From an uncultured Ruminococcus sp. (GTDB taxonomy: Bacteria > Bacillota > Clostridia > Oscillospirales > Acutalibacteraceae), in the NCBI GenBank assembly GCA_902802795.1, contig CADCNI010000035.1, positions 1 to 35,781 on the forward strand: a stretch of DNA of 35,781 bases, written 5' to 3'. Positions within the stretch are counted from its first letter, which is position 1. Every line of letters begins with the position of its first letter. The notes under the pieces were generated by a model that was not told where the DNA came from, ran no database searches, and saw only the letters and a list, made by a program, of their open reading frames with translations. Below are positions 1,965 to 12,632 of this stretch, piece by piece. The position numbers were made by a program, and so were the translations under genes.

Positions 1965-2453
1965 TTATTTCGATCTGGCAATCTCCACGATCTGATAACG
2001 AATCACGCCGCCGGGAGCTTCAATTTCAATCGTCTCGCCCAGCTTTCTGCCGACAACCGCCCGACCGATGGGGCATTCGTCCGAAATGCTGCCCTTAAAG
2101 GGATTGGCTTCGGTGGAACCTACAATCTGATATTCTTCTTCATCACCCGAATCGAGATCTACCAGCTTGACCTTGCCGCCGATCTTGACAACGTCGGTGG
2201 AAAGATCGGATTCGTCGATGATGACGGCGTTTTTGAGCATGGTTTCCAGCTCGAGAATGCGGCTTTCCACCTGCGCCTGCTCGTTTTTGGCTTCATCGTA
2301 TTCGCTGTTTTCACTCAAGTCACCAAAGGACAGCGCGACCTTGATCTTGTCAGCAATGTCTTTTCTTTTGACGGATTTGAGATATTCCAGTTCTTCCTCG
2401 CGCTGTTTCAGACCTTCCTCGGTCAGCATGAATTGTCTTGCGTTAGTAGCCAT
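1965..2453 (-). CDS. greA: Transcription elongation factor GreA
   Basis: A 162-residue Gre factor that enters the RNA polymerase secondary channel and stimulates cleavage of backtracked RNA. The N-terminal antiparallel coiled coil carries the tip motif GDLSENSEY, which retains both acids equivalent to E. coli Asp41 and Glu44. It is followed by a complete FKBP-like C-terminal domain with NPFKGSISDECPIGRAVVG and an APGG element. The frame opens 8 codons earlier with TTG, but AAGGAAG lies inside that stretch and is correctly spaced for the ATG at 2453, so that start is used. It lies 52 bp downstream of a second, truncated Gre-like gene and shares its strong promoter. Confidence 0.95.
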   Translation of the reverse strand: MATNARQFMLTEEGLKQREEELEYLKSVKRKDIADKIKVALSFGDLSENSEYDEAKNEQAQVESRILELETMLKNAVIIDESDLSTDVVKIGGKVKLVDLDSGDEEEYQIVGSTEANPFKGSISDECPIGRAVVGRKLGETIEIEAPGGVIRYQIVEIARSK

Positions 2454-2505
2454 ACTGTCACAATCTTCCTTTTCCAATAGTATTTTATGTGTTTCGCTCG
2501 ATCGG

Positions 2506-2748
2506 TCAATCCTCCGTCATGGCACGTCGGAGGATCTCCTCCAGCTCGCCAATCCGGTTTTCAATGCGCGCCTGCTCCCGCTTGGCCTCGTCGTATTCCC
2601 TGTTCTGACTCAGATCGCCGAGAGAACGCGCCACTCTGAGGCGGTCAGTCACTTCTTTTCTGTCAACCGAACGAAGGGTTTCCAGTTCGCGCATATACGC
2701 TTTCAGGCGGCTTGCCGTCATCACGTTCTTTTCTATCTCGTCAGCCAT
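2506..2748 (-). CDS. Stand-alone GreA N-terminal coiled-coil domain with altered catalytic tip
   Basis: An 80-residue protein that aligns without gaps to the first domain of the neighbouring GreA, including RELETLRSVDRKEVTDRL and REYDEAKREQARIENRI. It then stops, so the FKBP-like domain that anchors Gre factors to RNA polymerase is absent. The tip reads GDLSQN instead of GDLSEN. The codon is CAG, so the acid equivalent to E. coli GreA Glu44 is Gln while Asp41 is kept. Cleavage activity is therefore unlikely. The ATG at 2748 follows AAGGAG with a 10-nt spacing. It is the first gene of a two-gene unit with greA, behind a perfect-consensus promoter. It could be a regulator or competitor of GreA, or a decaying duplicate; the uninterrupted frame and strong expression signals favour a working gene. 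Confidence 0.8.
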   Translation of the reverse strand: MADEIEKNVMTASRLKAYMRELETLRSVDRKEVTDRLRVARSLGDLSQNREYDEAKREQARIENRIGELEEILRRAMTED

Positions 2749-2805: not shown

Positions 2806-2834
2806 ATTATAGCCGCAATCGCCGCGTATGTCAA
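2806..2834 (-). promoter_or_regulatory. Perfect-consensus sigma-A promoter for the Gre-like pair
   Basis: On the minus strand, TTGACA (2834-2829), a 17-bp spacer and TATAAT (2811-2806): every consensus position matches. Transcription should start near 2799, giving a leader of about 50 nt. This is the best promoter seen in the window. Confidence 0.85.
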
Positions 2835-2860: not shown

Positions 2861-5041
2861 TTACAGGGCACGCAGCACGGAGATCATGGAAATCAGCACA
2901 AAGACCAACTGCATGATGATGATTTCCACCGGGTCGATGGCGTAAGGACTCAGACAGCTCAGACCCGCCACAAAGAGAAATCCCATAGCAAAGCAAATCG
3001 TCTGAATCAGCAGACTCAGCCGGCGGTTCTCCTTAAGACGCACTGCCGCGCGAATGCCCTCCGACAGCGCCCGCAGTGAACCGTCAGTGGCCAGCAGCGC
3101 TTCCTCCTGCTCCGTCACCGCGTAGGTCACGGAATCATAGATGCGGCTGCCCTCGTTGTCGAGAATGGAGATAAAACGGGGCGGCACATCAAACACCGCC
3201 GTGATCAGCGGCACGTTGATGTTGGCGTCGCAGGTGTAGATCATGACGTTGGTGCCGTCGGAAATGAGCCGCACGAGCGCGTTACGCGTGGAAAGAGAGG
3301 CTTTGTATTCCAGCAGATAAACGCCCATCAGACGGTTGTTGACCGCCACATACAGCACCTGATGGCCAGGGCGCTTGCGCAGCGCTTCAAATTCGTCCAG
3401 CCGCGCCAGTCCGCCGTTCGGCACCAGCACACGGTGGGTTTCCATCATGTCGCGGTTGCCGATCAGGATGCGCTTTTCCCGCAGCCACGCCGAAATGCCC
3501 ATTTCGTTTTCGTACTCAATGCTGTCCACATTTTCCCGCAGCTTCGCGTCGTCACCAATGAGCTGCCCAAAGACTTCTGCCAGCGCACCGCCTGCCGCAA
3601 TCAGCACCGAGGCCGCTGTTGTAGTGATCTCCGCGATTTCCATTTCCGCTACGGCAAAGCTGCGGCGCACCTTAATGCTGCCCCGCGGGAAAAGCTCGGT
3701 GGTGTTGATGGCGAACGCGTCGGTGTCTCCGAATTTTTCGACGGCGTTCCAGCCGTTAAGCAGCGCGCCCTTGCGCCGCAGCCTGTTGGTGATGTGACTC
3801 AGCGGTATCTCCAGGCACAGCAGACCCGTGATGGGGATGCCCGTTACCAGCGCCGCGCACAGGGCGGAGAACGCCACGTTGAGGAAATCCCCCTCCATAA
3901 AGAGTCCCCTGACGGCTCCCACCAGTGCCGCAATGACGGAAACGGCGAGAAAATAGGGGTACACTTTGGCGATCATCGCGCTGCTGCTGTCCTCACGGCA
4001 GGCATTGACAAAATAATTGCCGAGCTGTCTGGTGCGCACCACATAGGCGATTCTGGCATTGGTGCTGCCCGACGCAAGCCGCAGATCGGCGGCGATGGGA
4101 CTGTCATCCGCCGCCAGCACCTCCGAGTGAATGCCCCGTCTGGCGGCATATCCGAACCCCTTTGCCACACGCAGGGTGTGAAGCAGGCGGTTAAAGGTGT
4201 AAATTGTCACCGCCAGACAAATGGGCGCGGCAAAAGAATGGGTGGCGGGCTGGCGCCTTACCGTCACGGACAGCAGCATATACAGAATATGCAGCAGTTC
4301 CGCGATGATTGCCGCCGCCACCGCCGCGCGAATATTGAATTGACGGGCAATCAGTTTTTTCAGCCCCGAAATCAGATCCTTGCTTACGATGCAGGACGTA
4401 AATCCCAGACCGCACAGGACAATCAGCAGATAAGCGACCGGCGAGATTTCCGGCATGAAAATGGAGGGAAAGGGAACGCCAAAGGCGGGCAGCAGTTCAA
4501 TGAGGCAGAGAAAGAGCGTCACCGCCCCCACCTCGGCGAGATTGAACATCAGACGCTTGCACATACCCTCCAGCTTGGCTCGGTTGTTTTCCACATCCTT
4601 GGCGCTGCGATAGCTCGATTTTGCCAAAATGGCATCTTCATCCAGCTCGTAATAAGCGACTCCGCTTCCACGGAAGGAACTGCGCCTTTTGAGCTGCTGT
4701 TCCAGCTCATACAGGTCAATGCTGGACTGTCGGTTATGTACGCCGCGCTTCTGATCCTTTCCAAGTATCCGGTCGGCGGGATCCATGTCCACCGGGGAAA
4801 TCATCGGCTCCTCCTCCGGTTTCTCCTGCGGCGGATAAAGCACATCCAGCAGCGCGATTTCCAGCCGCACAAAGGAAATTTTTCCCCGAATCAGCTTCAT
4901 ATTGCCCTTACCGGCCGCGGCGGACGGCCCTATCCCCCATTCGGAAGGAATGGGCATTGCCTCCATCACATGAGAAACAACCGCCTCGTCGGTCGTCTGT
5001 TTTTTATTTCCGATATGTGTTGTGTCTTCTTGAAAAGCCAA
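2861..5041 (-). CDS. Degenerate P-type ATPase-like membrane protein
   Basis: A 726-residue protein with the outline of a P1B-type ion pump but without its catalytic residues. Residues 1-165 are soluble and charged. Hydrophobic segments lie near 170-190, 200-220, 240-262, 270-290, 368-390, 395-415 and 685-726. At residues 441-454 the order D-x-F-A-I-N-T-T-E-L-F-P-R-G aligns with the phosphorylation motif DKTGTLTxG: the phosphorylated Asp is Asn446 (codon AAC) and the closing Gly454 is kept. The preceding transmembrane CPC becomes IPI at 402-404. KRILIGNRDMM (523-533) resembles the nucleotide-domain GN element. TCDAN (603-607) stands where TGDN is expected. No TGE actuator motif or GDGxND motif is visible. 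It starts with TTG at 5041 after AGGAGG. The two genes upstream encode disordered proteins. The fold assignment is inferred; transport by ATP hydrolysis is unlikely. Confidence 0.7.
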   Translation of the reverse strand: MAFQEDTTHIGNKKQTTDEAVVSHVMEAMPIPSEWGIGPSAAAGKGNMKLIRGKISFVRLEIALLDVLYPPQEKPEEEPMISPVDMDPADRILGKDQKRGVHNRQSSIDLYELEQQLKRRSSFRGSGVAYYELDEDAILAKSSYRSAKDVENNRAKLEGMCKRLMFNLAEVGAVTLFLCLIELLPAFGVPFPSIFMPEISPVAYLLIVLCGLGFTSCIVSKDLISGLKKLIARQFNIRAAVAAAIIAELLHILYMLLSVTVRRQPATHSFAAPICLAVTIYTFNRLLHTLRVAKGFGYAARRGIHSEVLAADDSPIAADLRLASGSTNARIAYVVRTRQLGNYFVNACREDSSSAMIAKVYPYFLAVSVIAALVGAVRGLFMEGDFLNVAFSALCAALVTGIPITGLLCLEIPLSHITNRLRRKGALLNGWNAVEKFGDTDAFAINTTELFPRGSIKVRRSFAVAEMEIAEITTTAASVLIAAGGALAEVFGQLIGDDAKLRENVDSIEYENEMGISAWLREKRILIGNRDMMETHRVLVPNGGLARLDEFEALRKRPGHQVLYVAVNNRLMGVYLLEYKASLSTRNALVRLISDGTNVMIYTCDANINVPLITAVFDVPPRFISILDNEGSRIYDSVTYAVTEQEEALLATDGSLRALSEGIRAAVRLKENRRLSLLIQTICFAMGFLFVAGLSCLSPYAIDPVEIIIMQLVFVLISMISVLRAL

Positions 5042-5075
5042 CTATCAAAACCTCCTGCAAATGACAGAGACAACC

Positions 5076-5110
5076 CAAGGGGAAACGATACGGATACCGT
5101 TTTCCCCTTG
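5076..5110. other. GC-rich hairpin between two genes of the disordered-protein cluster
   Basis: CAAGGGGAAA and TTTCCCCTTG pair around a loop of about 15 nt in the 109-bp gap upstream of the P-type ATPase-like gene. On the transcribed (minus) strand no T run follows, so it is more likely an mRNA processing or stability structure than a terminator. Confidence 0.45.
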
Positions 5111-5150
5111 TCGTTATTTTGTCATCTATTTTGCGATCATTGACAGCAGG

Positions 5151-6953
5151 TCAATGTCTCTTTTTAAATCTGCCGCCTTTTGGCTTGCCTTCTTCCACAT
5201 CGGCAGCCGCGGAATCCGCCGCAGCCGATGAAGCCGCGGAAGAAACCGACTTGCCGCCGAATCCGAAGCCGAACTCGTCATCCTCGGAGGCCGTCTGCAT
5301 GGAATCGCTGCTCATGCCGCTAAACGGATCATTGCTAAAAATCGGTGCGACAGGTTCCGGCGGGCCGGATGCGGCGATCGGTGGGCTGAAGGTAAAATCA
5401 GACATATTCGGTTCGGAAGCGATAGGCGCGGACGGCGCTGCCTGTATCGGTTCGGGCGAAACCGGAGGGGTAAAAATCGGCTCCGGTACAACAGGCGCGG
5501 GCGCTTCTGTCCTGACGGGCTCCGGCGGCGCCGTCTGCTGCGGATAAGGCGGTTCGTAAGGTGCTTCCGGATAGGTTCTGCGTTCCGGTTCCCGGCGTGT
5601 GTCGGCATAGGAATCACGATAGCGGTCATCTTGCCGGCGATCATATCGGTTGTCCTGCCGACGATCATATCGGTCGTCTCCCCGGCGATCATACCGGTCG
5701 TCTTCCCGGCGATTATACCGACGATCATCACGTCGGTCATCATATTCCTCCGCGTAACGGTCGCTGTCTCTCCGCTCTTCCCAGCGTTCGTCCCGGCGTC
5801 CTCCACGGCGTTCATATCTCCGATCGTCATACGGAGGATAGGACGGATAGGACGAATACGGCGGATAGGGGGGATATTGGGGCGGATAAGACGGATATTG
5901 AGGCGGATAGGAAGGATATTGGCTGTACATAGGCATCGGCATGGGCATCGGCATGGGATAAGGAATCGGGATGGTCTGATACGGCATGCCTCCCTGACTC
6001 TGATTCTGTCCGCCGTTGGGAATGACCATGGGATAGCTCATCATCTGATTCATGGGAGTCATCGGATAAGACGGATACATGCCACCATAAGGAATGAATT
6101 CCTGCTGGTTTTTGTCCGAATCCTGTGACATATAATCCCCCTCGCTTTCGTAATCGTCATACCGATCGTTCCGATCGTTCCGATCATACCGATCATTCCC
6201 ATCATTCCGGCCGTACCGATCCTCGTTCAAAGGCGGTGTGCTTTCTTTAGGCTGCGAGTGAAAGACGGAGTCCGGCCGGAGCTCGGGCAGATAACTGTCG
6301 GGTTTTTCATTTTCCTCCGCCTTTTTCGGCGTCACCTTCACGGGAAGAGGCGCGGGAGAAACGGGTTCCGGCGAGGATTCAATATCCTCCAAGTCGGGCA
6401 GATCCTCGGGTTCCTTTTTTCGTTTGCGAAAGGAAAAACGGGACGGCGGACGCACCGGTTTATCCTCGTCAAAATATTGGTCAAATTTTTCGGAATCGCC
6501 GTCTTTTTTTTCGTCATAGGTCAGTCCCGCAAGCAGTTCCTTGGCGGTTTCGCTGTCGGAATAAATCGACTGCTCCGGATAGACGTCATCTTCTCTCTCA
6601 TCGCCGTCAACCGGATCGAAAAGATAGGCAAACTCCGAATTGGTACTGCGGATAGGCGTGTTGCCGAAATCACTGCCGTGATCCAGACCCGTGGAAACCA
6701 TGGGGCTGCGCGTCGGGTCAAATATATGATCATCGCTCAGCGCCGCATCGTTGTCATCCACGCGCTGGTGCCGCTGAAACAGGCCTTTTTTCTGCTTGGG
6801 AAGATCGGCGGTTTTCTCGGCGGTTTTCTTTTTTGCTTCCCGCAGTTCCTTTCGGCTCAGCTTCCTGGGTTTCTCTCCGAAGTCGGCGCTGTCGGGATCG
6901 GCTGTCTCGGTTTCAAAATTGTCCTGATAATCTAAATCGTCTTCAAATCCCAT
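5151..6953 (-). CDS. Long disordered low-complexity protein (RYDRR and PY-rich)
   Basis: Unrecognised 600-residue protein with no membrane segment, signal peptide or known fold. Residues 1-240 are charged, with a lysine-rich patch near 30-60. Residues about 241-268 hold NDRYDRND repeats. About 318-376 is rich in Pro, Tyr and Met (runs of PYPMPMP and YPSYPPQ). About 378-456 is a mixed-charge array of DDRYDRRQ octads. About 460-600 is Pro/Ser/Ala rich and ends in a basic GGRFKKRH tail. Such Arg/Tyr-rich, mixed-charge sequence is typical of proteins that self-associate or bind RNA, but that role is only inferred. The ATG at 6953 follows AAGGGAGG at 7 nt; the frame continues 15 codons upstream without a better site. 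It lies 63 bp after the 644-residue gene and 109 bp before the P-type ATPase-like gene on the same strand. Confidence 0.8.
   Translation of the reverse strand: MGFEDDLDYQDNFETETADPDSADFGEKPRKLSRKELREAKKKTAEKTADLPKQKKGLFQRHQRVDDNDAALSDDHIFDPTRSPMVSTGLDHGSDFGNTPIRSTNSEFAYLFDPVDGDEREDDVYPEQSIYSDSETAKELLAGLTYDEKKDGDSEKFDQYFDEDKPVRPPSRFSFRKRKKEPEDLPDLEDIESSPEPVSPAPLPVKVTPKKAEENEKPDSYLPELRPDSVFHSQPKESTPPLNEDRYGRNDGNDRYDRNDRNDRYDDYESEGDYMSQDSDKNQQEFIPYGGMYPSYPMTPMNQMMSYPMVIPNGGQNQSQGGMPYQTIPIPYPMPMPMPMPMYSQYPSYPPQYPSYPPQYPPYPPYSSYPSYPPYDDRRYERRGGRRDERWEERRDSDRYAEEYDDRRDDRRYNRREDDRYDRRGDDRYDRRQDNRYDRRQDDRYRDSYADTRREPERRTYPEAPYEPPYPQQTAPPEPVRTEAPAPVVPEPIFTPPVSPEPIQAAPSAPIASEPNMSDFTFSPPIAASGPPEPVAPIFSNDPFSGMSSDSMQTASEDDEFGFGFGGKSVSSAASSAAADSAAADVEEGKPKGGRFKKRH
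5625..5730. repeat. In-gene tandem repeat of about 24 bp
   Basis: About four imperfect 24-bp units, built on CGGCGATCATATCGGTCGTC, encode the octad DDRYDRRQ within the disordered protein. A shorter 12-bp array of the same kind lies near 6150-6225. The units are a likely source of length variation by slippage. Confidence 0.7.
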
Positions 6954-7016
6954 ATGCGGGCCTCCCTTAATCATGAGGGTATTTTCTGTGCGATGCAAGC
7001 CGCCCTTTCCGCTGTT

Positions 7017-8951
7017 TTATCTGCCGCCGTTTCTTCCGCCGCGTCGGGCCGCACCCGACGGCTGCGGCATACCGCCGCTTCTGCGGGACTGGGGGACAGA
7101 GGGTCTGTTTTGACCGTTTACGCCGGCATTGCTTTTGCGGCTGCCTGTATAGGGCGTTGGAGAGGGCTGCGGCGTCTGTGTGGTATAATATCCCATCGAA
7201 CCGTACTGCGGCGCGTTGGGTGCGGTATGGGGCTGCTGTCCAACCGCACGGGGCGAAGCGACTGTCTGCGGATTACCATAGGCTGCCTGCTGCCGCATCT
7301 GTTCTTCCTGCTGCCGGATGTATTGCTGCTGTTGCTTCTGATACGCCTTGACCTGCTGCTCATAGGCACGGCGCTGCTGTTCATAGGCTCTGCGGCGCTG
7401 TTCCTCGCGTTCACGCGCTTTCTTCTGCTCCGCCTCACGTCTGGCCTTTTCCTGAAGACGGATCACTTCGCGGCCGTCGGCGATCCCCTGCTCCGTGGCG
7501 CGGCGCATTTGTTCCGCCATGTCACGGCGGCGGGAATCACGCTCCTGGCGTTCGCCGCGCGGATATCGGCGTGCGTCTCCATAGGGCTTTTCCCGCTGCA
7601 TATAAGCGCCGGGACGGCCGGCACGGTGACTGCCGCGATAACGTGACTGTTCCGCCTGTTCCGCCATTCCACTCTGGTCGGCCAGCCATTTGGCATACTC
7701 ATTCTCGCGGGAATTGACGCGGCTGTAGCCCATATTCCATTCGTACATCAGCGCGGGGTCGGTGAGTCCTTCGGGGTCGGTCACATGTCCCGGACCGCGC
7801 AGGTCGTGATTGATGACACTGCGCAGGCGTTCGTTGCTGGACTGCACATAGGGATTATTGAATTCGCCTGACATGATGCTTTCGCTAAGGACATTCTTGC
7901 TCGCGCTGATACGGCGGCGCTGTTTATTCATGGTGCGGTAACGGTCATTCGGGTCAAACTCCAGATCGGATACGTAATATTCCCGTCTGCCGCCGCCCGC
8001 ACGGCGGAAGCGGCTGCCGTCGGCCGGCTGCGCACTCTCATCGGGTTCATCGTCATAAATCGTGTTGACCGTGTGCCTCAGCATTTCGCTGCGCGAGGGG
8101 TCGAGCGAGTCGATTTCGCTCCAATGGCGGCTGAACCGCCCGAAAAAGGGCATGGATTTGCTGTCCGGCACCAGCCCGTCCTGCATGGGAATCCGGCTGC
8201 GCCAACTGCCGCGTTCGGTGACGGTCTCCACGTCAAACTGGTCTTCGGGTTCGTAAAATTCTTCCATGCTGCCCGGCGCTGCGGGAATGTCATAAATGCC
8301 CCGTTTGAATTTTCTCTTGCCGGTGTGGTTTTCTATACCGGATTTCGCGTCCTCGATATTCCTCCGCCGCCGGATGTCCTTCATGATGGCTTCGGGGGTT
8401 TCGCTGCGCTCTTCGGGGAGCATCTTCTCCACCTGCGCGCGCCGCTTGTCGATCGGTGTGCTGAGGCGGTCATAGGAGTGCAGCTTCACCTTGGTTTTGT
8501 TGCGTTCCCGTGCGCCTTCGCCCGTGCCGTAAAGATAGGACAGATCCTCGGGAAGTTCTTCTTTAATATCCGCGAGGGCATTGTATTTCAGCTTTTGAAT
8601 GGTGAGGTTGGATATACCGCTGCCCAGACTGCCCTGCGGACGGTAGTTATTGCCGTAAGAGGAATCGTCCAGGTGGGTCGAATCCTGGTCGGCGTCAATG
8701 ATATCTTCTTTGAGCCGGAAGGCGAAGCGGTTCTTTTTCTCGCTCTCTTTCACCGCTTCTTCGGCGGGAAGGGTTCGTCCGTCCTCAAACAGAGAGGGGT
8801 CCAGGTCAAAATTCGCCTTTTGCGGCCGCCATGAACCTTGCTTCCAGCGTTCGTGCGCTTCGTCCATCGAGACAAAGGTGGAAAAACGCGCCGCGTCCGA
8901 TTGTTCATCCACATAAGGATTGACAAACGGCTCTTTAAAATTCTCTGCCAT
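7017..8951 (-). CDS. Large disordered protein with a Gln/Arg-rich coiled coil
   Basis: Unrecognised 644-residue soluble protein. The first 470 residues are highly charged with few hydrophobic stretches; short recurring elements include FVNPYVDEQS near the start and FNNPYVQSSN near residue 365. Residues about 484-560 form a strongly predicted coiled coil rich in Gln, Arg, Glu and Ala, with repeated RRAYEQQ units. The tail from about 560 is Pro/Gln/Ser/Gly rich and ends in GGRNGGR. ATG at 8951 has GGAGG only 3 nt upstream and AAGGGAG 12 nt upstream; either could serve. It lies 83 bp after rlmB and 63 bp before the RYDRR protein, all in one direction. No enzymatic motif was found. Its composition fits a scaffold or nucleic-acid-associated protein, which is inference. 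Confidence 0.78.
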   Translation of the reverse strand: MAENFKEPFVNPYVDEQSDAARFSTFVSMDEAHERWKQGSWRPQKANFDLDPSLFEDGRTLPAEEAVKESEKKNRFAFRLKEDIIDADQDSTHLDDSSYGNNYRPQGSLGSGISNLTIQKLKYNALADIKEELPEDLSYLYGTGEGARERNKTKVKLHSYDRLSTPIDKRRAQVEKMLPEERSETPEAIMKDIRRRRNIEDAKSGIENHTGKRKFKRGIYDIPAAPGSMEEFYEPEDQFDVETVTERGSWRSRIPMQDGLVPDSKSMPFFGRFSRHWSEIDSLDPSRSEMLRHTVNTIYDDEPDESAQPADGSRFRRAGGGRREYYVSDLEFDPNDRYRTMNKQRRRISASKNVLSESIMSGEFNNPYVQSSNERLRSVINHDLRGPGHVTDPEGLTDPALMYEWNMGYSRVNSRENEYAKWLADQSGMAEQAEQSRYRGSHRAGRPGAYMQREKPYGDARRYPRGERQERDSRRRDMAEQMRRATEQGIADGREVIRLQEKARREAEQKKAREREEQRRRAYEQQRRAYEQQVKAYQKQQQQYIRQQEEQMRQQAAYGNPQTVASPRAVGQQPHTAPNAPQYGSMGYYTTQTPQPSPTPYTGSRKSNAGVNGQNRPSVPQSRRSGGMPQPSGAARRGGRNGGR

Positions 8952-9034: not shown

Positions 9035-9961
9035 TTAAAACTGGTTGTTGGCTTTGATGCCGCCCCGCTGGCGGGTGATCTCGTACATCACAATCGCGCC
9101 GGCGACCGAGGCGTTGAGGGAATTGATGCTGCCCTGCATCGGCAGAGACAGCACACCGTCGCACTTTTCGCGCACCAACCGGCTCACGCCGCTGTCCTCG
9201 CCGCCGATGACCAGCGCAATCGCGCCGGTGAGATTGGCTCCGCACCATGTTTCTCCGTCCATGTCGGCGCAGTAGATCCACAGACCCTTCTCTTTGAGGT
9301 CCTCGATACACGCCGAAAGGTTCGCCACCCGCGCGACAGGCATATATTCCAGTGCGCCCGCCGAGGATTTACCGACCGCCCATGTCAGACCCACCGCGCG
9401 GCGCTTGGGGATGATCACACCGTGCGCGCCCGCCGCCTCCGCCGAACGGATGATCGCGCCGAGGTTGTGGGGGTCTTCGATGCCGTCGCAAAGGATGAGG
9501 AAGGGAGATTCCCCTTTGCGCTCCGCCAGCGCCAGCATATCGGCAATCTCCGCGTATTCATGCACCGCCGCCAGCGCCGCGATGCCCTGATGATTGCCGC
9601 CGCACATCGCGTCCAGCTTGGCGGGCGAAACTTCCTTGACAGTAATGCCGCGCTCCTTCGCCATCGCGATGATCTGCCCAAAGGAACGTCCGCCGTTGTC
9701 GGAGGAACGGGCGGTCATGACGCATTCGATAGGGCGGCCGCTTTTCAGCGCTTCGGTGACGGCGTTGCGCCCCGTGATCAGATCGCTGTGTTTTTCCCTG
9801 TCGCCGTGGGGTTCACGCGGTTCCTCGCCGTTGTCTCTGCTGTCCCGCTCCTCAAACCCGTTGCGGCGGGGATGCCCGCCTGATTCAAACTGCTTATTTC
9901 TGTCAAAACGGCGTTTTTTCCCGACGCCGGACGGTTTGCTGCTGCCGTTGGTTTCACTCAA
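9035..9961 (-). CDS. rlmB: TrmH/SpoU-family rRNA 2'-O-methyltransferase (RlmB-like)
   Basis: A 308-residue SPOUT-fold enzyme that should methylate the 2'-O of a guanosine in 23S rRNA using S-adenosylmethionine. A charged N-terminal extension of about 60 residues precedes the substrate-binding domain, starting at LITGRNAVTEAL. The three SpoU motifs are intact: NLGAIIRSAEAAG with its catalytic Arg, VIGGEDSGVSRL, and LPMQGSINSLNASVA with the conserved Asn. The start is a TTG at 9961, since AGGAG lies 9 nt upstream and no suitable ATG follows. It has its own extended -10 promoter and is followed by the disordered-protein genes. Target specificity within the TrmH family (RlmB versus other guanosine sites) cannot be settled from sequence alone. 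Confidence 0.88.
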   Translation of the reverse strand: MSETNGSSKPSGVGKKRRFDRNKQFESGGHPRRNGFEERDSRDNGEEPREPHGDREKHSDLITGRNAVTEALKSGRPIECVMTARSSDNGGRSFGQIIAMAKERGITVKEVSPAKLDAMCGGNHQGIAALAAVHEYAEIADMLALAERKGESPFLILCDGIEDPHNLGAIIRSAEAAGAHGVIIPKRRAVGLTWAVGKSSAGALEYMPVARVANLSACIEDLKEKGLWIYCADMDGETWCGANLTGAIALVIGGEDSGVSRLVREKCDGVLSLPMQGSINSLNASVAGAIVMYEITRQRGGIKANNQF

Positions 9962-10112: not shown

Positions 10113-10889
10113 TCATTTTCCTGCCTCCGCGTCCACTGAGGCTGTTACGTTGCCCAACCGATCTTCCATGAGGAAGCAATGTCCCTCCCAACGGGATGTT
10201 TTATATTTGTCGATCAGTGTGATAAAAGCCGGCTTCTTCATGATTTCATATCGGGTAGTGGTGGGAGGGGTTTTGTTCTTTTTGTCTCCTTTTTCCGTGA
10301 TTTCCACCGTCCAAAGCTCCCCTGTGCTGTCGAGCTGTCGGTACACCGCCGCCCGGTAACGCCTGTCCGCACTGGATCCGGACAGCTTTTTGACAGGCAG
10401 CGTCAGCGAAAAGCCGCAGGCCTCCACCTGCCGCGCCGCCTGCTCCACCACGTCCCATTGTGCCTCGCTCCAATGATTGGCCTCCGCCATCGCGCGGAAA
10501 GCCTGCATCAGAACGGCAAGATAAAAGGCATTCCGCTCCTCCGGCTTGAGATGCTCCACCCGCCGCCGCGTTTCCTCACCCACATAATATGCCGACACAT
10601 GAAAATATCCGTCCCGCACATACAGACCGCATCCTTCCGCCGTTTGGTGAAAGGCAATCAAAAGACCGCTCTCTCTGTATTTCACATCGTCCTCCCACAA
10701 GCGAAAATACCGCTCCGGCGGCTCTTCAAACAGAACCGTCAGCCTGCCGCTGCCGTCCAGCTCCGGTTGATGGAGAAAATGGAGAAAAATCTGGGATATG
10801 TGATGCGACTGAAAGTGGATGGGCGTTTTGATGCCGTGCGCCGCCTCGTAATGCTTATTGCTCTGGATGGAAAGAATCGCTAATCGCAT
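10113..10889 (-). CDS. Hypothetical protein, 258 residues
   Basis: No family recognised. It is a soluble protein without signal peptide or membrane segments. It is rich in aromatic residues and His near the N-terminus (HYEAAHGIKTPIHFQSHHIS), has a helical middle (about residues 115-150), and ends with a basic region (about 205-235). ATG at 10889 follows GGAAGGAG at an 8-nt spacing. It stands alone between the palindromic repeat at 10911-11140 and the rlmB promoter region, and its start codon lies only 22 bp from the repeat. Codon use is like that of its neighbours. The uninterrupted frame and ribosome binding site support a real gene. Confidence 0.7.
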   Translation of the reverse strand: MRLAILSIQSNKHYEAAHGIKTPIHFQSHHISQIFLHFLHQPELDGSGRLTVLFEEPPERYFRLWEDDVKYRESGLLIAFHQTAEGCGLYVRDGYFHVSAYYVGEETRRRVEHLKPEERNAFYLAVLMQAFRAMAEANHWSEAQWDVVEQAARQVEACGFSLTLPVKKLSGSSADRRYRAAVYRQLDSTGELWTVEITEKGDKKNKTPPTTTRYEIMKKPAFITLIDKYKTSRWEGHCFLMEDRLGNVTASVDAEAGK

Positions 10890-11703: not shown

Positions 11704-12498
11704 TTATTTTCTTAATATTGTGCGCAGTGTCATTTTTTCGTCCAGCGGCACCGTTTCTCCAAAGATACGCCGCACAGCGTCACGCGCATACCGCATGAAC
11801 TGACTGCCTGTGTCGGGAGGCTGCCCCGAAAGAGCCGCTTCCATGGCAGACAGATCGTGTAGCAGCACGCCCACAAGCCGCGCGCCCACGGTATCAATGC
11901 ATTCGTCAATGCTGCCCGCATAGACCCCGCCGCTCCGCATAGTTTCGGGGGAAAAGTCGGTGAGCAGCAGCCGGAATTCACAGCCGCACGCCGCCTGTTC
12001 CCGCGCCCGCCCCAGCAACCGGCGCAGCGCCGCCGCATAGGACAGGCTGAGTTTGTCGGCACGCGAGCAGAGAATGATCCAATCAAAGCAATTGACCGCG
12101 CCGCAGTCCGGCACCGTGCCCGACGGCAGATCGGCCACCACGTCGCCCTGCCGCGACAGTTCCTCGACCAACCGCCGCGCCTCAACGCAATAGGGCGGCA
12201 GCGGGGTCTCTGAAAACGCGGAAGCCGGCAGAACCCGGAGATTCTCGCCGCAATCCGTCAGCGCTTCTTCCAGCTCGCAGGCGCCGCTCGCCGCGTCGCC
12301 TATATGCATATTGATCTGTTCACCGACCCCCAGCATATGCGCCAGGGTGCCTCCGAAGCCGCACAAATCCACCGCCGCGGCCGCATGACCGAGGTCTGCC
12401 GCCGCCTTAGAGAGATATGCCGCCGAAAGGGTGCTGCCCTGACCGCCGAGGGCGGAAATGACTGCAATTTTCTTGCCCAAAGCCTCACCCACTCGCAT
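11704..12498 (-). CDS. MinD/ParA-like protein with degenerate Walker A motif
   Basis: A protein of about 264 residues that follows the MinD pattern from KKIAVISALGG through GVGEQINMHIGDAASGACELEEAL to a Walker B-like VVADLPSG. In MinD the deviant Walker A is GKGGVGKT; here the aligned stretch is ALGGQGST, so both lysines are missing and the second Asp of the DxD switch is Cys. ATP-driven membrane cycling is therefore unlikely. The C-terminus has RRIFGE, reminiscent of the MinD membrane-targeting end, but extended. The start is uncertain. The frame reaches 12570, but a promoter lies inside that stretch, so the ATG at 12498 or the TTG at 12480 (preceded by GAGTGGG) is more likely. It occupies the place of minC-minD-minE-rodA between pbp2 and mgsA. 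Confidence 0.72.
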   Translation of the reverse strand: MRVGEALGKKIAVISALGGQGSTLSAAYLSKAAADLGHAAAAVDLCGFGGTLAHMLGVGEQINMHIGDAASGACELEEALTDCGENLRVLPASAFSETPLPPYCVEARRLVEELSRQGDVVADLPSGTVPDCGAVNCFDWIILCSRADKLSLSYAAALRRLLGRAREQAACGCEFRLLLTDFSPETMRSGGVYAGSIDECIDTVGARLVGVLLHDLSAMEAALSGQPPDTGSQFMRYARDAVRRIFGETVPLDEKMTLRTILRK

Positions 12499-12516
12499 AC
12501 GTGTCCAGTTAATTGT

Positions 12517-12545
12517 ATGATAGCACAAATTTGAAAAGAAGTCAA
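12517..12545 (-). promoter_or_regulatory. Sigma-A promoter for the MinD-like gene and mgsA
   Basis: On the minus strand, TTGACT (12545-12540), a 17-bp spacer and TATCAT (12522-12517). The start point near 12510 leaves a very short leader. This argues for translation from 12498 or 12480, not from the upstream ATG. Confidence 0.7.
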
Positions 12546-12632
12546 AGAAAATTTTCAATATTTTGGCCATTTGCGTCGATTTTTTATGACAAAAATATAC
12601 TGAAATATTTGGTAATTTTCTATTTCGTTAAA

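Follow-up and report, generated by a model that had tools for sequence, protein, structure and literature searches.

The window analysed here, a stretch of 35,781 nucleotides from an uncultured Ruminococcus sp. (contig CADCNI010000035.1), carries at positions 2861..5041 of the minus strand a gene for a protein resembling the P1B-type ATPases in outline and lacking their catalytic motifs, referred to here as the pseudo-pump. The initial annotation of this DNA described a full-length frame of 726 codons with a strong ribosome binding site, and both are borne out, with AGGAGG lying 9 nt before a TTG start codon on the minus strand. Translation of 2861-5041 on the plus strand is interrupted by a stop codon. 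The features central to the analysis are listed below, with row counts referring to the family alignment described in the next section.

2861..5041, minus strand: pseudo-P1B-ATPase coding sequence, 726 residues, TTG start (NCBIfam match, predicted fold, and ratio of nonsynonymous to synonymous substitution rates, dN/dS)
5051..5056, minus strand: Shine-Dalgarno sequence AGGAGG, 9 nt ahead of the TTG (direct reading)
3830..3838, minus strand: I402-P403-I404, at the site of the M4 metal motif CPC; 68/75 rows keep the Pro
3680..3706, minus strand: NTTELFPRG (residues 446-454), replacing DKTGTLTxG; family form xxx[DE]LFPxG
3221..3235, minus strand: TCDAN (residues 603-607), replacing TGDN; D605 in 73/75 and N607 in 72/75 rows; family form TxDxN
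9035..9961, minus strand: rlmB, 23S rRNA G2251 2'-O-methyltransferase family (TIGR00186, 2.4e-69), the family's usual upstream neighbour

An antisense open frame of 593 residues (3362-5143, plus strand) overlies the pseudo-pump, and is probably a codon-usage shadow.

Relation to P1B pumps and loss of motifs

The window protein matches the NCBIfam family TIGR01525 (heavy metal translocating P-type ATPase) with an E-value of 8.7e-11, scoring 41 bits where the cut-off is 346, with nothing found in Pfam at E<=1 or among PDB chains at E<=10 (phmmer), and a single weak ATPase match (0.0018) in PHROGs. Across 27 scanned members of the family, 21 match TIGR01525 at E<=0.01 and none matches any Pfam family at that threshold. 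The host genome contains one copy of the pseudo-pump, the sole other match being an intact pump (L002) with DKTGT and CPC. The initial annotation held that a predicted structure without a P-type fold would count against it; structure prediction gave a P1B fold, with a three-domain head on a helical membrane body, both for the window protein and for a second member only 16% identical to it. In the predicted model the P1B-like fold spans approximately residues 148-726, with A, P, and N domains in pump order and helices that fit the P1B membrane plan, the helix count being read off the model by eye. The family profile matches LpCopA with an E-value of 2.6e-34 (positions 319-596), and P1B is the closest P-type subfamily by both sequence and predicted fold. 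The window protein is a true, if distant, relative of P1B pumps. A tree built from 28 members and 26 pumps places the members on one side of a branch with support of 100/100, several long branches being flagged, and in this tree the pseudo-pump family is monophyletic. The likeness to the P1B pumps CopA, ATP7B, and ZntA lies in predicted fold, domain order, and helix plan, whereas the pseudo-pump lacks CPC, DKTGT, TGE, HP, and GDGxND, has shortened A and P domains, and usually bears a long, probably disordered tail.

The extent of this loss was assessed in a family alignment of 75 rows, comprising the window protein, 16 others of the genus, and 58 from other genera, with the host genome's own intact pump L002 as the pump reference row. 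The seed profile was built without L002, L003, and L015, and two rows were removed ahead of counting: L032, which occupies the same place as L003, and L053, which is split by an in-frame TGA with its pieces left unjoined. DKTGT, CPC, and TGE are each exact at their aligned columns in 0/75 rows, and the columns of GDGxND (the Mg2+ ligand, GDGIND in L002) are gapped in 75/75. The reading of NTTELFPRG for DKTGTLTxG, IPI for CPC, and TCDAN for TGDN in the initial annotation is therefore correct, as is the absence of TGE and GDGxND, and the homologues retaining DKTGT that would have spoken against it are not found among the aligned rows. The idea that other family members are intact pumps was likewise ruled out, with no aligned row having DKTGT or GDGxND. 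The motif loss predates this species, and is not a property of this protein alone.

The TGE columns are all gaps in 11/75 rows and hold other letters in the remainder; the letters TGE occur elsewhere in 6/75 rows, with those of L060 and L067 lying in or near the A-domain stretch, off the motif columns. The A-domain loop measures 39-54 residues, compared with 113 in L002, and the P-domain stretch 68-74 residues, compared with 104. At the former CPC site, Cys is found at position 402 in 1/75 rows and at position 404 in 3/75, with the M4 prolines P403 and P413 kept in 68/75 and 62/75 rows respectively, and no fixed metal-ligand side chain seen among the listed M4-M6 columns of the 75 rows.

The emphasis initially placed on Asn446 does not hold beyond the genus. 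Asn occupies this column in 17/17 genus rows, whereas the 58 rows from other genera have D in 29, S in 8, R in 6, T in 5, G in 3, N in 3, and four single letters, giving totals of 20 N and 29 D over all 75 rows. The Asp of those 29/58 rows comes without the rest of the DKTGT motif, and Asn446 looks like drift at a site whose job had already gone. Gly454, the other residue singled out for a check of fixation, is similarly invariant in the genus (17/17) and present in 34/58 rows elsewhere. The replacement pattern is itself conserved, with an acid at 449 in 67/75 rows, L, I, or V at 450, F451 in 68/75, and P452 in 65/75. Of the claim that TGDN reads TCDAN, the letters stand, with the Asp (D605) kept and among the most conserved residues of the family. 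By the established P-domain fold, the TxDxN site would lie near the phosphorylation loop.

The N-domain retains G515 and G528 in 75/75 rows and Y579 in 74/75, with G515 aligning with the second Gly of the pump GxG loop and G528 with the Gly of VLxGN. The first Gly of the GxG loop is kept in 21/75 rows, and the His of the HP (SEHP) motif in 0/75, where G (51), S (14), A (3), C (2), and one each of M, T, L, N, and W are found. The loss of this His, together with the scarcity of the first Gly, makes ATP binding of the usual kind doubtful.

Selection, spread and linkage to rlmB

Estimates of dN/dS by the Nei-Gojobori method, made between the window gene and its relatives, are 0.078 against L003 and 0.117 against L004, with the other five pairs of dS <0.9 giving 0.067-0.126, and distant pairs, which are near saturation, reaching up to 0.28. 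By region, the values against L003 and L004 respectively are 0.13 and 0.17 for the tail, 0.058 and 0.146 for the membrane plus A part, 0.115 and 0.116 for M5-M6, and 0.016 and 0.022 for the P/N head. The strongest constraint falls on the cytosolic head, the domain without chemistry. Frames are open in 17/17 genus rows, L018 being cut by a contig end. The initial annotation left the loss as tolerated or selected; given the dN/dS values, selected is preferable to tolerated. In L053, an in-frame TGA at 5253-5255 splits the relative into 363 and 430 residues where the genome search gave an 811-residue open frame, with sequencing error, decay, and recoding as candidates.

Spread was surveyed in 198 genomes (the host's own, 17 of the genus, and others of the family and order), of which 188 match the window protein at E<=1e-3. 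Retesting of 42 weak or negative genomes with the profile found a family member in 22/22 and in 3/20, and removed seven earlier positives (G106, G115, G123, G145, G151, G179, and G184, which at E<=1e-10 show either nothing or only incomplete matches of the pump type), the 156 positives outside the retest having matched at 2.9e-15 or better. A family member is thus present in at least 181/198 genomes and in 24 of 26 family labels. This is a lower bound, as the contigs of G145 and G095 break off shortly behind rlmB, in what can be recognised as the beginning of the tail or of the 644-residue open reading frame (ORF) described below (the G145 stub contains an FSVEDILAEF tail, and that of G095 resembles the window's ORF), and those of G022 and G123 are likewise cut behind rlmB. 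Beyond the order, a draw of 291 genomes from the class gave 319-871 bits for 12 same-order genomes and, among the matches listed, at most 123 bits and partial matches for the others, with the six genomes at E<=1e-45 in a draw of 398 from the phylum all belonging to the same order; very distant members scoring below these values would escape both draws. A link to sporulation was rejected, with G030, G032, G039, and G063 having the gene without a Spo0A_C or SpoIVA match, and G050, G064, and G102 having both without the gene.

The genomic setting of the family was compared in 60 loci, the window and 59 others hand-picked from the query-match list, one per genome, from many genera and families. 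In 58/60 loci rlmB lies upstream on the same strand, and in 56/60 it is directly ahead of the pseudo-pump, 50 of them at a distance of -52 to +155 bp (median 20.5) and 6 overlapping, with the longer nominal overlaps of these 6 (-62 to -226) put down to start-codon calls. In the window and in L034, rlmB is ~4 kb away with two ORFs in between; L033 has no rlmB in its stretch, and L070 has no upstream gene called, its frame running to the contig end. Downstream genes differ among loci, with a putative EF-G-like gene near 15 and a putative Era-like gene near 4, both named from the look of their sequences. The pseudo-pump is probably co-transcribed with rlmB. A search for rlmB in the 17 genomes where no member was detected, with E. 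coli and B. subtilis as controls, found it missing or below cut-off in 10, six of these being >=93% complete, and present in 7, in four of which (G022, G095, G123, and G145) the contig ends too soon behind rlmB. Since adjacency eases joint loss, this co-absence is support rather than proof of a linkage.

N-terminal tail and possible roles

In the 58 rows of other genera, the stretch that precedes the membrane region is 25-1076 residues long (median 263) when the earliest possible start is taken. The motif [VIL][DE][DE]I[LI]x[ED] occurs in 28/58 of these tails, each time within the first 110 residues, compared with a mean of 0.1 and a maximum of 2 in shuffled tails, and a broader expression that also counts matches deep in the tail finds 32/58. 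FSLDDILxEF-type motifs are seen in probably disordered tails such as those of L079 (1608-3701), L075, and L083, with residues 38-44 of L079 predicted as a short helix, and the motif looks like a docking peptide. A DNA pattern for the motif gave 10 matches in 20 genomes, 7 in the pseudo-pump gene and 3 elsewhere, compared with 4 for a backward control, and the motif was rejected on this count as a general tag on other proteins; an earlier, looser pattern had given 8 matches compared with 1 in 6 genomes.

In the window, the space between rlmB and the pseudo-pump is taken up by two ORFs:

5151..6998, minus strand: low-complexity, probably disordered protein of 615 residues, no Pfam match at E<=1
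7017..8951, minus strand: probably disordered protein of 644 residues, for which Pfam gives just one weak match below threshold (TAF4, 0.08)

Neither these two proteins nor the pseudo-pump match a defence system in PADLOC. The 644-residue ORF is matched in 12/12 genus loci reaching that far, and the 615-residue ORF in 11/12 (none in L126), plus a fragment in L115. The latter has SEFSYLFD-like words ([FY]S[YF]LF motif) common to four fused N-terminal tails (4/58, shuffled mean 0.01), and the former reads MDEAHERW where L034 reads YNFDIVMEEARERL, reminiscent of the tail motif. These short shared words and the gene order suggest fission of the tail in the genus, in which the 644-residue ORF would probably be the N-terminal part and the 615-residue ORF another part. 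The 615-residue ORF also contains tandem repeats at 5619-5717 (24 bp x 4.1) and 5860-5922 (21 bp x 3.0). In the 109-bp gap ahead of the pseudo-pump lies an inverted repeat, AAGGGGAAA...TTTCCCCTT (5077-5109, minus strand), possibly an attenuator or leftover terminator.

The pseudo-pump is probably a membrane pseudoenzyme, an order-wide P1B relative that we propose serves at the membrane as a scaffold or as a sensor of a ligand and does not pump. What the analysis shows directly is the predicted fold, motif losses, monophyly, selection, spread, and rlmB linkage. An ancestor of the order would have taken a copy of a copper/zinc-type P1B-ATPase. In this copy the GDGxND segment would have dropped out of the P-domain, the A-domain loop shrunk by about half, xxx[DE]LFPxG taken the place of the DKTGT loop, and the membrane Cys pair disappeared along with the HP His that holds ATP, with the helical membrane body and P/N head retained and subsequently held by selection. 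The resulting protein would probably be unable to run the phosphorylation cycle, offering a rigid, membrane-anchored cytosolic head, where a ligand or protein may bind to the Gly loop of the N-domain and to the remodelled P-domain pocket, formed by the LFPxG loop and the nearby TxDxN. The disordered cytosolic tail would recruit a client, with the N-terminal motif, found in about half of the tails, probably docking a partner. A role as sensor, scaffold, or regulator, as initially proposed, is supported by the predicted fold, the lack of DKTGT among relatives, and dN/dS. The role itself, the absence of pumping, docking, tail fission, and co-transcription are inferred.

Several observations weigh against this reading. 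Three tails are just 25-53 residues long, 30/58 tails and the members of the window's genus, the window protein included, lack [VIL][DE][DE]I[LI]x[ED], and the strict form [FY][ST][VIL][DE][DE]ILxE is found in 14/58 tails. Whole-length comparison of the fused tails with the split ORFs detected no homology, the best hmmsearch E-value being 0.068. In G083, G109, and G115, more than 5 kb behind rlmB contains no pseudo-pump gene. The retained N-domain glycines leave room for nucleotide binding. Furthermore, the eukaryotic endoplasmic reticulum protein ERMA/TMEM94 reportedly pumps Mg2+ despite DKQGI, GSSANL, and no TGES (PMC13322241), and by this analogy degenerate motifs would not prove inactivity.

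The alternatives are taken in order of decreasing likelihood. It is possible, if unlikely, that the pseudo-pump is a helper of RlmB or the ribosome, a membrane protein that anchors or controls 23S rRNA modification or the assembly of ribosomes. It would explain the position directly behind rlmB in 56/60 loci although downstream genes change, and fits with rlmB not rising above cut-off in 10/17 genomes without a detected member. However, neighbours are readily lost together through one deletion or one missing contig, RlmB is also found in the E. coli and B. subtilis controls (in which the pseudo-pump family was not searched), and three genomes keep rlmB alone. A dedicated RlmB membrane partner, in which a ligand or nucleotide state is sensed by the remodelled P-domain and the tail brings 50S-maturation or translation machinery to the membrane, is a more speculative form of this proposal and rather doubtful; if true, it would represent a novel type of regulator linking membrane and ribosome.

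We consider it unlikely that the protein uses the old transport path without ATP, whether as a channel (passive or ligand-gated) or for sensing metal. Whilst the membrane body is under selection, as seen in the dN/dS of the membrane plus A part and of M5-M6, and the two M4 prolines are largely kept, selection peaks in the cytosolic head rather than the membrane, and no conserved metal-binding side chain is found in the listed columns.

Improbable too is an unconventional yet active transporter similar to ERMA/TMEM94, driven by a different acid (E/D449 or D605) or energy source. The frequency of these acids (67/75 and 73/75), the membrane body with its M4 proline (68/75), and the precedent itself speak for such activity, with the likeness to ERMA/TMEM94 extending to P-type architecture, a degenerate phosphorylation loop, replacement of GDGxND, and absence of TGES (PMC13322241). 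In contrast to ERMA, which keeps its Asp, the pseudo-pump family has Asp in just 29/75 rows, its GDGxND is deleted in 75/75 rather than replaced, its nearest pumps are P1B, and its host is bacterial. TGE in place and the HP His are each found in 0/75 rows, and neither a Cys pair at the CPC site nor a fixed metal-ligand side chain is present in the listed M4-M6 columns. A decaying pump pseudogene or a sequencing or binning artefact, to which the lost catalytic motifs and the one split locus in 60 (L053) might point, is in effect refuted by dN/dS of ~0.1 and conservation, with open frames in 17/17 genus rows, the same architecture in 75 rows, and members in 24/26 sampled family labels.

Kinases and phosphatases offer well-known examples of pseudoenzymes. 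For P-type ATPases, literature searches of open-licence PMC papers yielded only eukaryotic, debated cases (PMC13322241, PMC6592433), and a bacterial pseudo-P-type ATPase was not found among the papers listed or in passages of the review PMC10654040. Plasmodium guanylate cyclase beta likewise has a degenerate P4-ATPase domain, and differs in being fused to a cyclase, P4-like, and eukaryotic. A bacterial pseudo-P-type ATPase that is order-wide and without a Pfam family, as the pseudoenzyme reading has it, offers a test case for the P-type fold without the usual ATP cycle, and ties an uncharacterised gene to a ribosome-modification gene.

Flanking genes

Behind the pseudo-pump, the following features lie on the same strand:

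2806..2834, minus strand: sigma-70-type promoter match, 12-of-12, behind the pseudo-pump stop and ahead of GreA-N (consensus match only)
2506-2748, minus strand: GreA-N domain alone, 80 residues, beside full GreA; a separate gene among genus loci only in L112 and L113
1965-2477, minus strand: GreA, full greA

The GreA-N and GreA genes (1965..2748) are probably not part of the pseudo-pump module and, going by the promoter match, the greA copies may have a transcript of their own. On the other side, a MinD/ParA-like ATPase (11704-12570, minus strand; TIGR01968 1.4e-10, 40.9 bits, cut-off 212.9) lies between PBP2 and rlmB, and is matched in L116, L124, and L125. Between this gene and rlmB, an ORF of 258 residues (10113-10889, minus strand), with no Pfam or NCBIfam match and no match at E<=1e-3 in other genus loci, is 95% identical in L113.
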